Positions 2,735-25,970 of a DNA stretch of 26,206 nucleotides are shown one piece after another. The stretch comes from a virus. The first letter of the stretch is position 1; each line of letters begins with the position of its first letter. The notes beneath the pieces are model-generated. The model was given only the letters and a program-made list of their open reading frames with translations, made no database searches and was not told the origin of the DNA. Location of the stretch: the IMG/VR virus record IMGVR_UViG_3300047388_000255, positions 1-26,206 of that record; one strand, 5' to 3'. The position numbers and the translations under genes are program-made.

Positions 2735-2905
2735 GACGACCTAGTGTTGTTGGTATATGACGCAACTGTCTCTACTAATGTAAACTAGGCTGTGGTATCG
2801 AGCAGCGGAATTAGGTGCAAGGTTGCAAAAAGGGCTAACTCCCTGTCTAATGTAGCGTCGTGAAGTTGTAGAACAATAAACTGACAAAATCTACAATACA
2901 ATAAA
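2735..2905 (+). ncRNA. candidate structured RNA
   Basis: Nested helices: CCTAGT (2740) with ACTAGG (2784), GACGC (2759) with GCGTC (2855), ATTAG with CTAAT, AGGG with CCCT, and a terminal TTGTAG/CTACAA hairpin. It contains no ORF and no group I intron core. Family not recognised. Confidence 0.35.
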
Positions 2906-2915
2906 TGTTTTCTAA

Positions 2916-2970
2916 AGTGTTCGTTCATCAATTTTAAAAATTCAACTTGTAATTGAAAAATAAGAACACT
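2916..2970 (+). repeat. AG-N5 / N5-CT hairpin element, copy 1
   Basis: AGTGTTC (2916-2922) pairs GAACACT (2964-2970). It is preceded by TTTCTAA and followed by GATTTA, the conserved flanks of this family. The interior is A/T rich with a small TTCAA/TTGAA helix. It lies just upstream of a tRNA gene. Confidence 0.7.
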
Positions 2971-2983
2971 GATTTATTACAGT

Positions 2984-3059
2984 CGCGGCTGGGGAAGATG
3001 GTAATCCGCTGGTCTCATAAGCCAGAGAAACCAGGTTCGATTCCTGGAGTTCGCAACCA
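2984..3059 (+). tRNA. tRNA-Met(CAT), initiator-like
   Basis: Anticodon arm CTGGT-CTCATAA-GCCAG. The 3' end GCAACCA puts A at position 72 opposite C1, the unpaired C1-A72 feature of bacterial initiator tRNA. The anticodon stem lacks the full three G-C pairs, so initiator identity is likely but not certain. Confidence 0.7.
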
Positions 3060-5375: not shown

Positions 5376-5487
5376 AATCAATCTGCCTTCCCCGGTCTCT
5401 ATTAAACTATGTCGGACTGGCAGTCCAGTTTTTATCCGTTTTTCGCATCACTAAATTATATAATGCGTATAAACGGAAGCTAATAAT
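5376..5487 (+). other. inter-tRNA spacer with two hairpins
   Basis: GGACT-ggc-AGTCC followed by AGTTTTT could terminate transcription. Just after it, CCGTTT pairs AAACGG around GCAT/ATGC. No ORF or tRNA is seen. Confidence 0.35.
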
Positions 5488-5604
5488 GTCGCTGTATTGT
5501 AAAGGTAACACATCTATGAAGGTGATCCTGTCAAGGATACATACGGCAATCTAAATTCCACGTCAAGGAGTAGATCCGATGTTCGATTCCCGACAGCGGC
5601 ACCA
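5488..5604 (+). tRNA. oversized tRNA-like gene (117 bases)
   Basis: Acceptor GTCGCTG/CAGCGGC plus ACCA bracket a D-arm (TGT/ACA) and a T-loop TTCGATT. The middle is too long for an ordinary tRNA and contains GTCAAGGA twice, 32 bases apart. It may carry a small insertion or be decayed. The isotype cannot be assigned safely. Confidence 0.45.
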
Positions 5605-5672: not shown

Positions 5673-6701
5673 ATGAAGGTATATCAAGGACTTGCACGTG
5701 ATCATTCCGGCTCAATGGCAAATATTGCCAAATATGCCGCTCGTGATTACAACGAGAACATCGAATCCATTAGAGAAGGAGCCGAAGCGCACAACATTGA
5801 TACTGTGGTATCTGTTGTGGAACTTGGCTACGGTGACACCGACAAGGTTCGCACAGTTATTGCTAATTCATCAGTCACGGCATTGAAGCCGATTGCCGAA
5901 AATAGCTACAGCGCACGTGGATGTGGTACTCCGTTGTTTGATGCAGTTGGTGAGCTGGTGGAGCAACTCCAAGCGGTTCCCGATGCAGACAATCCCACCG
6001 TTTCCTTTGTGGTGTTTACTACCACCGATGGCGGAGAGAACGCCAGCAGGAAGTATTCGGGCGCAACGATTGCGAAGCTGATCAAGAATCTGCAAATGAC
6101 CGATCGTTGGACGTTTGTGTTCCGTGTTCCGCAGGGCTATAAGCATCAGCTTACCCAATACGGTATTCCGGAAGGCAACATCCAAGAATGGGAACAATCG
6201 GAGCGCGGTTTGGCTGTGTCGACAGTCGCTACCAAGAGTGCTTTCCGTGGCTTTTATGCTGCGAAGGCTGCTGGTATCAACGCAACTGATAAGTTCTACG
6301 CGGACTTGAGCACAGTTTCCTTGAAGGAAGTGAAGGGCGCATTGGTTGACATCTCCAAGCAAGTTGATGTCTACGAAGTGGATGCTGCCAACGATGGCGC
6401 ACAAATCCGTGACTTCGTGAATGACCAAGGCATTACCTTTGTGAAGGGTTGTGCGTTCTACGAGCTGAAGAAGACTGAAACTGTTCAAGGCTACAAGCAA
6501 ATTGCCATTCGTGATAAGACGACTGGTGCTGTTTACAGTGGTTTCAATGCACGTGACTTGCTTGGTCTGCCGCATACCGGTGACGTGAAGCTTGCCCCGG
6601 GTAACCATGCCAACTACGAAATCTACGTGCAATCCACGTCGGTCAACCGTAAGTTGACAAAGGGGATGGGATTGATGATTTGGATTAACGTTCCGGCGTA
6701 A
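5673..6701 (+). CDS. von Willebrand factor A-domain protein
   Basis: 342 residues. The MIDAS metal-binding motif D-x-S-x-S is seen as DHSGSM (10-15), with the conserved Thr in GTPLFDA (about 86) and Asp in TTDGGE (about 119). The C-terminal half has no assignment. VWA proteins bind partners through a divalent cation; in phages the partner is unknown. AAAGG precedes the ATG. The gene is clearly less A/T rich, with more GC-ending codons, than nearly everything else here, and lies alone between tRNAs. This suggests high expression or a different origin. No signal peptide. Confidence 0.85.
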   Translation: MKVYQGLARDHSGSMANIAKYAARDYNENIESIREGAEAHNIDTVVSVVELGYGDTDKVRTVIANSSVTALKPIAENSYSARGCGTPLFDAVGELVEQLQAVPDADNPTVSFVVFTTTDGGENASRKYSGATIAKLIKNLQMTDRWTFVFRVPQGYKHQLTQYGIPEGNIQEWEQSERGLAVSTVATKSAFRGFYAAKAAGINATDKFYADLSTVSLKEVKGALVDISKQVDVYEVDAANDGAQIRDFVNDQGITFVKGCAFYELKKTETVQGYKQIAIRDKTTGAVYSGFNARDLLGLPHTGDVKLAPGNHANYEIYVQSTSVNRKLTKGMGLMIWINVPA

Positions 6702-8834: not shown

Positions 8835-9114
8835 TCCGATATAGCACAGCGGTAGTGCAGGTGACTGTTTTTAATGGCAGCTTTTATCTGAAAGGATAAT
8901 TGAAAAATTCGTCAAATTCGGTGAACCCTAAGTACAGAAATGTATATGGTAACGCCGAGCCAAGCTTCATATAGAAATATATGTTGAAGGTGTAGAGACT
9001 AGACGGCGAATATCTAAGTCGAAAGATATGATAATGGCATAGTCCACGCTACTATGAAAATAGTAGATTAGTGTAATCACTTGGTCAGGAGTTCGAATCT
9101 TCTTATCGGAGCCA
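8835..9114 (+). tRNA. tRNA-Asn(GTT) with group I intron
   Basis: Exon 1 is 8835-8868 and exon 2 is 9074-9114. Joined, they give a 75-base tRNA with acceptor TCCGATA/TATCGGA, discriminator G, CCA, and anticodon loop CTGTTAA (GTT). The intron interrupts the anticodon between its second and third bases; the run of T leaves the exact junction ambiguous by a few bases. Confidence 0.85.
8869..9073 (+). mobile_element. group I self-splicing intron
   Basis: About 205 bases with a recognisable catalytic core: a Q-like GGTAACGCCGAGCC, R-element GAGACTAGACGG and S-element GGCATAGTCC, so that P7 pairs GACTA with TAGTC. Exon 1 ends in T and the intron ends in G, as required for group I splicing. It carries no endonuclease ORF. 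Confidence 0.85.
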
Positions 9115-10554: not shown

Positions 10555-10637
10555 GGGCCGCTGACATATGCAAACTGGTACAGCTACTAGATTTAGACTC
10601 TAGGTTTTTCCGGGTTCGAATCCCGGGTGGCCCACCA
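10555..10637 (+). tRNA. tRNA-Leu(TAG)
   Basis: Acceptor GGGCCGC/GTGGCCC plus ACCA. Anticodon arm CTAGA-TTTAGAC-TCTAG. T-arm CCGGG-TTCGAAT-CCCGG. The variable loop is short for a bacterial tRNA-Leu. Confidence 0.8.
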
Positions 10638-10646
10638 AAGTTTTAA

Positions 10647-10760
10647 AGGATACTTGCAGCAATGTCTTAAACGACAGTTGGTTCAATTCCAACATTATGA
10701 TTTGCATAATACGCTCAATGGTTGAGCAATGGACTCATAATCCATAATTAACAGTATCCT
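10647..10760 (+). tRNA. circularly permuted tRNA with CAT anticodon
   Basis: Order of parts: T-arm GTTGG-TTCAATT-CCAAC (10677-10693), 3' acceptor strand ATTATG plus A (10694-10700), four bases, 5' acceptor strand CATAAT (10705-10710), D-arm GCTC-AATGGTT-GAGC (10713-10727), anticodon arm ATGGA-CTCATAA-TCCAT (10729-10745). The acceptor strands are exactly complementary over 6 bp but face inward. The outer ends pair as AGGATAC/GTATCCT. CCA is not encoded. Met or lysidine-type Ile are both possible. Confidence 0.75.
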
Positions 10761-10774
10761 GTTTTAGTTTCTAA

Positions 10775-10870
10775 AGGATGGGTTCAGCCATACAAATTCG
10801 CAAACTTTGCGGCCCGCCCAGTTGGGGCGTGGCAATAGGGTTCGATTCCCGGTCTATAGCCAAACATCCT
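10775..10870 (+). repeat. AG-N5 / N5-CT element enclosing a T-arm-like hairpin
   Basis: AGGATG (10775-10780) pairs CATCCT (10865-10870), with family flanks TTTCTAA and GATTTA. Inside lie a GC-rich hairpin (CGCCC/GGGCG) and GGG-TTCGATT-CCC extended by ATAG/CTAT and followed by GCCA. It looks like a tRNA top half without a visible anticodon arm. Confidence 0.5.
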
Positions 10871-10885
10871 GATTTATTTGACCAT

Positions 10886-11062
10886 AGGTTCGCTTCAGCA
10901 CTAAATTAATCTTTCTTCCAAAAAGAAGATCTAGGTTCGAATCCTAGCAGTAGAGTTGGTCACTACTGTCGTCTAATGGTCGGATATAAATGCGAACCTG
11001 TTTTGAATTCTGGTAAGACTATGTTAATATTACCCTTTAACTAGGGCATCACTTCCGAGCCT
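10886..11062 (+). tRNA. second circularly permuted tRNA
   Basis: T-arm CTAGG-TTCGAAT-CCTAG, then 3' acceptor CAGTAG plus A, eight bases, 5' acceptor CTACTG, a D-arm like GTCTAATGGTCGGA, and an anticodon arm CCTGT-TTTGAAT-TCTGG. By position the anticodon is TGA, but two stem mismatches make the identity unsure. The outer ends pair as AGGTTCG (10886-10892) with CGAGCCT (11056-11062), followed by GA as in the repeat family. Extra hairpins flank both halves. Confidence 0.65.
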
Positions 11063-11094: not shown

Positions 11095-11174
11095 GGTGAT
11101 TGAAGGTGAAGTAGACGAGCCCTCTGGCTGTGAACCAGAGCATTTAGCCAGTTCAAGTCTGGTCAGTCACCCCA
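11095..11174 (+). tRNA. tRNA-His(GTG)
   Basis: Acceptor GTGATTG/CAGTCAC with the additional G-1 opposite C73, the hallmark of tRNA-His. Anticodon arm TCTGG-CTGTGAA-CCAGA. CCA encoded. Confidence 0.9.
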
Positions 11175-11180
11175 AGTTTT

Positions 11181-11287
11181 GGTCGTATAGCTCAGTTGGT
11201 AGAGCGTCCGGGTTCTTATATACAAAGGTCGACTATATTTGTATATATCCTTATAGGAAGGTCGTGGGTTCGAGTCCCTCAGCGCCA
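11181..11287 (+). tRNA. tRNA with inserted hairpin, isotype unclear
   Basis: A canonical D-arm (TAGCTCAGTTGGTAGAGC) and T-arm (TGGG-TTCGAGT-CCC) are present. The anticodon region holds a perfect 10-bp insert hairpin (TATATACAAA with TTTGTATATA). The left side GGGTTCTTA suggests Arg(TCT) and the right side CTTATAG suggests Ile(TAT). The acceptor pairs poorly and CCA is missing, so this may be a decayed gene or one with a small intron. Confidence 0.45.
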
Positions 11288-11299
11288 AATTAATTTTAT

Positions 11300-11484: not shown

Positions 11485-11496
11485 AAGTTACAATAT

Positions 11497-11594
11497 GGGT
11501 AGTAAATGGGAGTATTTGGGTTCGAATCCCAATTAAGTATGGTACTAAAATGTCGACGGACGCTCGGTAGGTTCAATTCCTCCACTATCCACTA
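11497..11594 (+). tRNA. type II tRNA-like, probable Ser(CGA)
   Basis: Acceptor GGGTAGT/ACTATCC. The central hairpin TTGGG-TTCGAAT-CCCAA reads as an anticodon arm (CGA) although it resembles a T-arm. A second T-arm TAGG-TTCAATT-CCT follows a long variable arm. The D-arm is minimal and the 3' end is ACTA. Alternative assignments are possible. Confidence 0.45.
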
Positions 11595-11748
11595 AAGTCA
11601 ACGGGCCGTAAAGAAGTCACTAAATTATACACCTTTTTGTGTCCACCATTTGCAGAACTTAGGTAATTTATATAAAATATAGCAATGCTTAAGAGTTTAC
11701 ATTAATATGCTATTAGAATGATGTTGCGGAATAGTGAAAAAATTTTTA

Positions 11749-12531: not shown

Positions 12532-12585
12532 AGAATGCGTTCAGCAATTTAAAAATCAAAATTGAAAATTGAAAATAAGCATTCT
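12532..12585 (+). repeat. AG-N5 / N5-CT hairpin element, copy
   Basis: AGAATGC (12532-12538) pairs GCATTCT (12579-12585). TTTAA precedes and GATAT follows; TTCAGCAA follows the left arm. Directly upstream of a tRNA-like gene. Confidence 0.7.
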
Positions 12586-14348: not shown

Positions 14349-14399
14349 AGAGTGTATTCAGCATACAAAATCAATTTGAAAACTTGAAAAACACACTCT
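14349..14399 (+). repeat. AG-N5 / N5-CT hairpin element, copy
   Basis: AGAGTGT (14349) pairs ACACTCT (14393). TTTCTAA precedes; ATTCAGCA follows the left arm and GACTA the right arm. It lies in the leader region of the next CDS. Confidence 0.7.
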
Positions 14400-14419: not shown

Positions 14420-14797
14420 ATGTCACACTATATCGCAATTATTACAAGCAAGGATTACTATTCGGGATATGAGCACGATGAACGCGACATTCTCATTACA
14501 AGTATTACTGATTGGTATGAAGTTACTGATGACGAATACAAGGCACTTCGTGCAGCTCAATCGCGCCTTGGATACATGATACTTGAGCGCCCGACAGACA
14601 TGAAGGTATTTGTTGCTAAGACTGTTGCAGATTATCTTGCTTATGCTAAGGCAGAAGAGAAGAGAATGGCAGCAGAGAAGGAAGCAAGAGAGAATGCCGC
14701 AATTGAACGTAAGATCAAAAAGGAACTTAAAGATAAGGCATCTAAGCTTAAGATGTTTGAAAAATTAAAGGCCGAACTTGGCCAGGAAGCATCCTAA
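14420..14797 (+). CDS. hypothetical protein with C-terminal coiled coil
   Basis: 125 residues, with AAAGGA before the ATG. The N-terminal 75 residues (MSHYIAIITSKDYYSGYEHDE...) form a mixed fold; residues about 75-120 are a Lys/Glu/Ala-rich helix, likely coiled coil. Less A/T rich than the endonuclease genes. No family recognised and no membrane segment or signal. Confidence 0.7.
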   Translation: MSHYIAIITSKDYYSGYEHDERDILITSITDWYEVTDDEYKALRAAQSRLGYMILERPTDMKVFVAKTVADYLAYAKAEEKRMAAEKEARENAAIERKIKKELKDKASKLKMFEKLKAELGQEAS

Positions 14798-15401: not shown

Positions 15402-15460
15402 AGAATCCATTCCGCAACTCAAATGAAATTCAACTTGTAATTGAAAATAAAACGGATTCT
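15402..15460 (+). repeat. AG-N5 / N5-CT hairpin element, copy
   Basis: AGAATCC (15402) pairs GGATTCT (15454). The interior shares TTCAACTTGTAATTGAAAA with copy 1 at 2916. Just upstream of tRNA-Gln. Confidence 0.7.
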
Positions 15461-25550: not shown

Positions 25551-25703
25551 GTATAATATATTAGCATTGTTGGTTACGAAAGGGGAATGTAAGGGTCCCG
25601 TATCGCAAGAGTGAAAGCCTCCTAGACCCGGGAACACCAACATCATTGTTGTACGAAGCTGAAGGAAAGCTTCTGATAAAGAATTCTGCTATTCAGTTAG
25701 CAA
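25551..25703 (+). other. structured leader region of permuted tmRNA
   Basis: TGTTGGT (25568) pairs ACCAACA (25636) around GGGTC/GACCC, and GAAGCT/AGCTTC follows. This probably forms pseudoknot or helix parts of the tmRNA acceptor-side transcript. The 5' boundary is unknown. Confidence 0.45.
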
Positions 25704-25970
25704 ATCTGTAATAAAAGGCAGGCAAGACTCGGCTATCGTAGGCCGACATCTCCACCAATTTTCCGTGCCGAACACGGGGGTGAAAGGATTCGATTGCGTG
25801 AGTAATACATTGCAGATGGAATCGTCAGGCGATCGACGCAAATGAAGCAAAAAACGTTAAATGCAAACGACAATATGTATTTCGAGGAACTTGCGCTAGC
25901 CGCGTAAGCTCGATGGGGCAGGAAATGCCTTATTATCCAAATAACCAATGGGGCTTCGGCCCCATTTCTT
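25704..25970 (+). ncRNA. ssrA: circularly permuted (two-piece) tmRNA
   Basis: The 3' acceptor piece precedes the coding piece. CATCTCC-ACCA (25747-25757) pairs GGGGGTG (25776-25782), which begins the conserved GGGGGTGAAAGGATTCGA. Helix P2 forms between ATCTGTAAT (25704) and ATTGCAGAT (25809). The tag frame 25863-25907 encodes ANDNMYFEELALAA then TAA, ending in the ClpXP-type ALAA signal. The 18 bases between the pieces would be removed. It rescues stalled ribosomes; an AND-N start is typical of alphaproteobacterial tags, whose tmRNA genes are also permuted. Confidence 0.9.
25947..25970 (+). terminator. terminator at tmRNA end
   Basis: ATGGGGC-ttcg-GCCCCAT followed by TTCTT. The hairpin is strong; the T run is short. 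Confidence 0.7.

Follow-up and report, generated by a model that had tools for sequence, protein, structure and literature searches.

A circularly permuted tRNA fold in the tRNA array of a large bacteriophage, read as a Y-RNA-like tRNA mimic

The tRNA array of a large bacteriophage contains an element, E2 (positions 10886–10999), that is a complete tRNA fold in circularly permuted form, the breakpoint lying between base 26 and base 27. The DNA analysed, referred to here as the window, is the 26,206-base IMG/VR virus record IMGVR_UViG_3300047388_000255, which carries a dense tRNA array. We read E2 as a Y-RNA-like tRNA mimic, with a function that we infer, rather than as a gene for a spliced tRNA, and it may belong to a class of RNA not yet described. 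An earlier note on this DNA had described a second permuted tRNA here, an observation that is partly confirmed, on evidence stronger than that note could draw on: covariation bears out the fold, whereas a processed, working tRNA is doubtful. The features of E2 and of its sister elements in the window are listed in Table 1.

Table 1. Parts of E2 and sister elements in the window
Feature	Position	Strand	Sequence and remarks
P1 closing stem, 5' strand	10886..10892	+	AGGTTCG; perfect 7 bp with 10993-10999
Single-stranded motif directly after P1	10893..10900	+	N-UUCAGCA; invariant in homologue alignment; family consensus N-UUCAGCAA
Anticodon arm	10910..10926	+	TCTTT-CTTCCAA-AAAGA, anticodon TCC; compensatory stem changes in L104
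Variable region	10927..10930	+	AGAT; between anticodon arm and T-arm
T-arm	10931..10947	+	CTAGG-TTCGAAT-CCTAG; 100% paired, double change in 2 pairs
Acceptor stem, closed as hairpin	10948..10968	+	CAGTAG [AGTTGGTCA] CTACTG; 6/6 pairs double-changed
D-arm	10971..10985	+	GTCT-AATGGTC-GGAT; 100% paired; CG, GC and UA types at one pair
P1 closing stem, 3' strand	10993..10999	+	CGAACCT, then GTTTT; matches family end NNNNNCT-G
Sister element 1	10647..10760	+	P1 AGGATAC/GTATCCT; hairpin TGTC-TTAAAC-GACA, T-arm, closed acceptor, D-arm, anticodon arm
Sister element 2 (E1)	10775..10872	+	P1 AGGATG/CATCCT; three hairpins, one T-loop-like GGGTTCGATTCCC
Anticodon-stem-loop-only element	2916..2970	+	TTCAA-CTTGTAA-TTGAA (TGT)
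Short element	12532..12585	+	P1 AGAATGC/GCATTCT
Short element	14349..14399	+	P1 AGAGTGT/ACACTCT
Anticodon-stem-loop-only element	15402..15460	+	TTCAA-CTTGTAA-TTGAA (TGT)

The window includes 17 tRNAs called by ARAGORN and further ones added by Rfam. E2 lies between genes for tRNA-Leu(TAG) (~10555–10637) and tRNA-His(GTG) (~11096–11171), both visible in the sequence and both overlooked by ARAGORN, which also calls none of the permuted and related elements in the window. Other RNA genes here include a permuted tmRNA gene at 25696–25907 (RF04321, 90 bits) and a group I intron at 8857–9066 (RF00028, 77 bits) within a tRNA anticodon region. Three tRNA-like genes are irregular: that at 5483–5603 has an insert of ~45 nt in the anticodon loop and no group I intron match, that at 11182–11290 resembles tRNA-Arg(TCT) and carries an additional hairpin (TATATACAAA...TTTGTATATA) as an insert in its anticodon arm, and that at 11490–11597 has a second T-arm-like hairpin in its D region, an arrangement found also in L122 at ~6091–6193. 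Two catalytic candidates for E2 were rejected, namely self-splicing or permuted intron-exon circles (E2 has no group I core in its vicinity and lacks a conserved splice site) and a hammerhead or other known ribozyme (no Rfam match).

In the 5' to 3' direction, E2 consists of P1, the UUCAGCA motif, the anticodon arm, the variable region, the T-arm, the acceptor 3' strand and a loop, followed by the acceptor 5' strand, two bases (U8-9), the D-arm, an A-rich linker and the second strand of P1 (P1'). The acceptor strands (CAGTAG, 10948–10953, and CTACTG, 10963–10968) are separated by an A and a loop of 8–9 nt, with no CCA. The T-arm, CAGTAG plus A, spacer, CTACTG and D-arm were thus all located in the permuted order that had been proposed for them, inside a closing helix. 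No anticodon-like arm follows the D-arm, where one had been placed; the canonical arm is upstream of the T-arm (10910–10926) and is kept in homologues, and the TGA anticodon that had been suggested belongs to the homologue in L122/L104, the window having TCC. As to the outer helix, the 5' strand was correctly recognized but the 3' strand was not: instead of CGAGCCT (11056–11062), the true partner is CGAACCT, a perfect complement of 10886–10892 that begins 7 nt past the D-arm (p ~0.0005) and is kept in relatives, whose similarity stops at ~11009. A 7-bp partner allowing G-U pairs is found by chance within 250 nt in 41% of cases, and on this basis CGAGCCT was rejected as chance-level pairing. 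It sits in a separate, perfect 10-bp hairpin just 3' of E2 (11013–11022/11074–11083) that is specific to the window and absent from relatives, and E2 therefore ends near 11004. Because a three-way alignment keeps AGGTTCG, CGAACCT and the anticodon arm, the molecule is read as running from P1 through the anticodon arm and T-arm to P1'.

The circularly permuted tRNA fold is strongly supported by comparison with homologues. Plain DNA similarity identifies two relatives, on contigs of 136 kb (L122/L104) and 385 kb (L123/L116). Adding L360 and an E2-type element at ~122.2 kb of the record of a cultured Synechococcus phage, BUCT-ZZ01 (L370), brings the alignment to five sequences; two further homologues, L140 and L247, share the E2 plan. 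Pairing is found in 133 of the 135 aligned cells (98.5%), a percentage that is partly selected for the stems used in searching, because most homologues came from motif or structure searches, and 12 of 27 pairs are changed on both sides; with partners shifted by 1–3 columns, pairing is 40–48% with 0–2 double changes. For E2, the pairs of P1, the acceptor and the D-arm were recovered in two relatives by plain sequence similarity. Both helices for which the earlier note had asked for covariation, the outer helix P1 and the acceptor stem, show compensatory changes in relatives, including a C-G to U-A double change of P1 in L360 and L370; the loss of acceptor pairing alongside a retained T-arm, which it had named as contrary evidence, is not seen, all six acceptor pairs being changed on both sides. 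The aligned anticodon arms read TTCAT-CTTGAAA-ATGGA in L122 and TCTTT-CTGTAAA-AAAGA in L123, and the loop is of the C32-U33-NNN-A37-A38/U type, with the anticodons TGA, GTA, GCT and GGA in homologues. Four phages (the window, L104, L116 and L360) keep the acceptor loop GUUGGUC while the acceptor stem varies. The argument that such an arrangement is not due to chance also holds well, as a plain structural finder for the permuted core (a T-arm, then an acceptor hairpin, 2 nt and a D-arm) gives 21 occurrences across the 158 kb of loci with elements, compared with 0.15 per shuffled set.

E2 belongs to a set of at least 77 non-redundant elements from 36 phage loci. These elements apparently constitute an undescribed family of phage tRNA mimics akin in build to bacterial Y RNAs; no description of permuted tRNAs in phages was found in the literature searched, which included few subscription papers. 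The family frame is AAG, a 7-bp covarying stem, N-UUCAGCAA, a cargo, the returning stem and CUG(A/U), or, more fully, CUAAAG or similar, a stem of the form AGNNNNN/NNNNNCU, one base, UUCAGCAA, the cargo, an A-rich linker, the stem and G(A/U). E2 departs slightly from this frame, with a TAG start and CAGCAC. Across the 77 elements P1 has 38 different 5' strands, every one of them paired. When bacterial genomes were searched for the element pattern, 78 matches came up, approximately the chance level estimated beforehand, and after a helix test only isolated matches were left, without other family features.

The cargo is either a lone anticodon stem-loop or a permuted tRNA whose breakpoint varies. 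Among the short elements, a stem of at least 4 bp with a 7-nt loop (xUNNNRN) is present in 18 of 33 clusters, compared with 1.9 (sd 1.2) in shuffles, which rules out chance hairpins as the origin of the cargo; the anticodons displayed include TGT, TTT, GAA, GTA, TAA, TCC, TCT, CAC, GTT and others. By inspection, the permuted tRNAs are broken within the anticodon stem (28|29) in L348, L349, L357, L358 and at 3875 of L140, in the anticodon loop in L340, L353 and L366, and in the variable region in the window element at 10647; other long cargo lacks one arm. The earlier note had described two permuted cases of the same architecture, and the one at 10647 (sister element 1) is indeed real and shares the frame, but its breakpoint, in the variable region, differs from that of E2 at 26|27. 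Its acceptor is ATTATG[ATTTG]CATAAT and its anticodon arm ATGGA-CTCATAA-TCCAT (CAT), and it has a relative in L360 (8051, −). E1 (10775–10872) contains a T-loop-like GGGTTCGAYTCCC and is conserved in L122, L123, L141 and L346; no full tRNA fold could be obtained for it and no recognisable tRNA is present. In one 208-kb phage contig (L357), a skipping-rope RNA (RF02924, 41.2 bits) is located close to the elements, at 2887–3004.

Where loci hold a tRNA, the nearest one is co-oriented with the element in 69 of 69 cases, at a median distance of 14 nt. Such proximity might be expected of a signal for processing or transcription of the tRNA array, with P1 and UUCAGCAA marking where cleavage between tRNAs takes place and the cargo being incidental, but the cargo is non-random, being tRNA-like or an anticodon stem-loop far more often than in shuffles, and we regard this role as very unlikely. 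The many copies per array, and a permuted order that is just what a tandem tRNA pair leaves once its outer halves decay, could also indicate that the elements are left over from tandem duplication of tRNAs, or are a repeat that spreads, with no function as RNA. This reading, already disfavoured, is highly improbable given that each helix class shows compensatory double changes, that UUCAGCAA is conserved and that co-orientation is uniform.

A more substantial question is whether E2 is processed. As a true permuted tRNA gene, its acceptor loop would be removed by RNase P and a 3' endonuclease and CCA added, yielding an aminoacylated tRNA-Gly(UCC) whose pieces are held together by P1, as in two-piece tmRNA, or whose ends are ligated. 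The complete tRNA anatomy with canonical anticodon arms is compatible with this, as are the CCA encoded in the loop of two relatives (L357 and L366), the presence in the window of a permuted tmRNA, a kind of RNA processed in this way elsewhere, and RtcB in 4 of 24 records. However, these are the only 2 of 21 permuted elements to encode CCA, whereas 302 of the 413 ordinary tRNAs in those loci do so, and a short loop of 3–12 nt connects the two acceptor strands; the conserved loop GUUGGUC is kept though processing would discard it, which counts against a processed tRNA. The 1-72 pair is mostly mismatched, the anticodon varies freely (TCC, TGA, GTA, GCT, GGA) on a kept body, the short sister elements lack an acceptor, and sister elements may keep the anticodon arm alone or a T-arm without an anticodon arm. 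No tRNA splicing endonuclease (PF01974) was found in 25 records, the same search giving control matches in 4 archaea, and inspection of the E2 junction revealed neither a bulge-helix-bulge nor a second helix beside P1. Processing of the permuted gene into a working tRNA is thus poorly supported, and we consider the aminoacylated tRNA-Gly(UCC) unlikely.

An RNA that stays whole is favoured because CCA is rare, the loop is conserved, no splicing endonuclease is found, RtcB is rare and the anticodons vary. From these sequence features, E2 is quite probably a tRNA-mimic RNA that stays closed, and if so, a role as decoy or scaffold is likely; that it serves as an anticodon-nuclease decoy in particular is a tentative and rather doubtful suggestion. 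The best explanation overall, to which we lean slightly, is of a small non-coding RNA of ~114–120 nt with both ends paired in the 7-bp P1, containing a permuted tRNA fold, remaining whole and acting as a tRNA mimic.

In the mechanism we propose, the E2 RNA would stay whole and act as a tRNA mimic, with its basal stem and UUCAGCAA serving as a handle to which a putative protein binds. The target of the tRNA-like head, or of the anticodon loop, would be an enzyme for which tRNA is a substrate to be handled or attacked. It has been proposed that the tRNA-like domain of YrlA inhibits an anticodon nuclease competitively (PMC7790460), and a role against such nucleases is also suspected for phage tRNAs (PMC10264068, PMC11555353). 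The variety of displayed anticodons would fit a decoy set. A candidate protein partner that was considered is a vWA-like protein (5673–6698; phrog_26613, without a Pfam match), which neighbours the array here and in close relatives; 8 of the 24 records with elements encode a homologue. A 125-aa protein at 14420 gave no relatives.

Phage tRNA genes are often counted and are a matter of debate, and tRNA finders overlook the handle elements. If these are tRNA mimics, large phages have a second layer of tRNA-shaped RNAs beside their tRNAs, offering a testable route to how they survive tRNA-cutting defences, and Y-RNA-like mimicry would come to include RNAs whose anticodon arm is complete and which have no Ro60.

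Several known systems resemble E2 in part. It has every tRNA arm in a permuted order, as do the algal and archaeal permuted tRNA genes (PMC3978253, PMC3218864), in which the tRNA halves are likewise inverted and joined by an acceptor loop; the phage elements differ in having a conserved family frame and a conserved acceptor loop, and neither a bulge-helix-bulge nor a splicing endonuclease was found with them. The two-piece tmRNA, also represented in the window as noted above, has a similar permuted order and acceptor loop, but includes a tag reading frame and an encoded CCA, neither of which is in E2. The anticodon-nuclease-resistant phage tRNAs (PMC10264068, PMC11555353) have a possible purpose in common with the elements, and anticodon loops under change, but these are charged tRNAs from standard genes.

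YrlA, which consists of a basal stem and a domain like the D, T and acceptor arms and tethers Rsr (Ro60) to PNPase (PMC8394870), is closer in shape. Its consensus order is basal stem, a second stem where a tRNA would have its anticodon stem, then T-arm, closed acceptor, UA and D-arm, and E2 has a permuted tRNA-like domain of this kind (T-arm, closed acceptor hairpin, D-arm), together with an end-to-end basal stem and an A-rich 3' linker. The elements might therefore be bona fide Y RNAs acting with host-supplied Ro60/Rsr and PNPase; besides the common topology, full-length matches to the YrlA model (RF02553) are found on relatives (L140, 46.0 bits; Pseudoalteromonas phage J2-1, 45.0; L247, 41.4; L340, 36.7), and Y RNAs have been reported from mycobacteriophages, as cited in PMC12282133. 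However, the curated cut-off of 69 bits is reached in none of the 27 records (best, 46.0), the window copy of E2 gives no match at E<=2, and weak matches mean little because 9 of 14 control genomes also match at E<=0.01, all below the cut-off. The basal stem sequence and UUCAGCAA are unlike the YrlA consensus, and YrlA is without an anticodon arm (PMC8394870), whereas the phage elements have a full one, or that arm alone. No TROVE (Ro60/Rsr) gene is present in the 24 element-bearing records, in a search that was positive in Brevundimonas phage Gurke and Mycobacterium phage Phabba. We do not file E2 as YrlA, and think a bona fide YrlA distinctly unlikely. Gurke and Phabba themselves code for long-stem YrlA-like RNAs as well as a TROVE gene; the RNAs (L383 at 1509, 1683 and 1982; L384 at 1509) are unannotated or called tRNA-Ser.

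The handle has its nearest counterpart in the Class I RNAs of Dictyostelium, which start with AAG, end with CUGU, and have a short stem with compensatory changes, a motif ending CAGCAA adjoining the 5' strand, and a variable interior (PMC7919456). The Class I model (RF01414) finds short elements in 15 of 27 records and in none of 14 control genomes, including three in the window (2917, 12533 and 15403), with scores up to 35.6 bits, below the curated cut-off of 41.5 bits. The family consensus has the AAG start, a CUG(A/U) end, the covarying stem (6–7 bp) and the motif positions U, C, C, A and A; the short elements also match the Class I length of ~60 nt and E2 (~114 nt) does not. The differences are in the motif (UUCAGCAA in the phages, CCUUACAGCAA in Class I), the tRNA-like interiors and the setting in phage contigs rather than a dictyostelid host. 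To our knowledge, dictyostelid Class I RNAs have been thought unique to social amoebas. Convergence is a possible source of the likeness, because the scores are below the cut-off and the model and the search share one short motif. We tentatively suggest, as a proposal that falls somewhat short of probable, that the elements are a new modular class of phage small RNAs, in which a handle shared with Class I RNA (the 7-bp stem plus UUCAGCAA) would display a bare anticodon stem-loop or a whole permuted tRNA with a closed acceptor, so as to bind or disable tRNA-attacking proteins. The handle match to Class I RNA would suggest either a common type of binding protein or a striking convergence.
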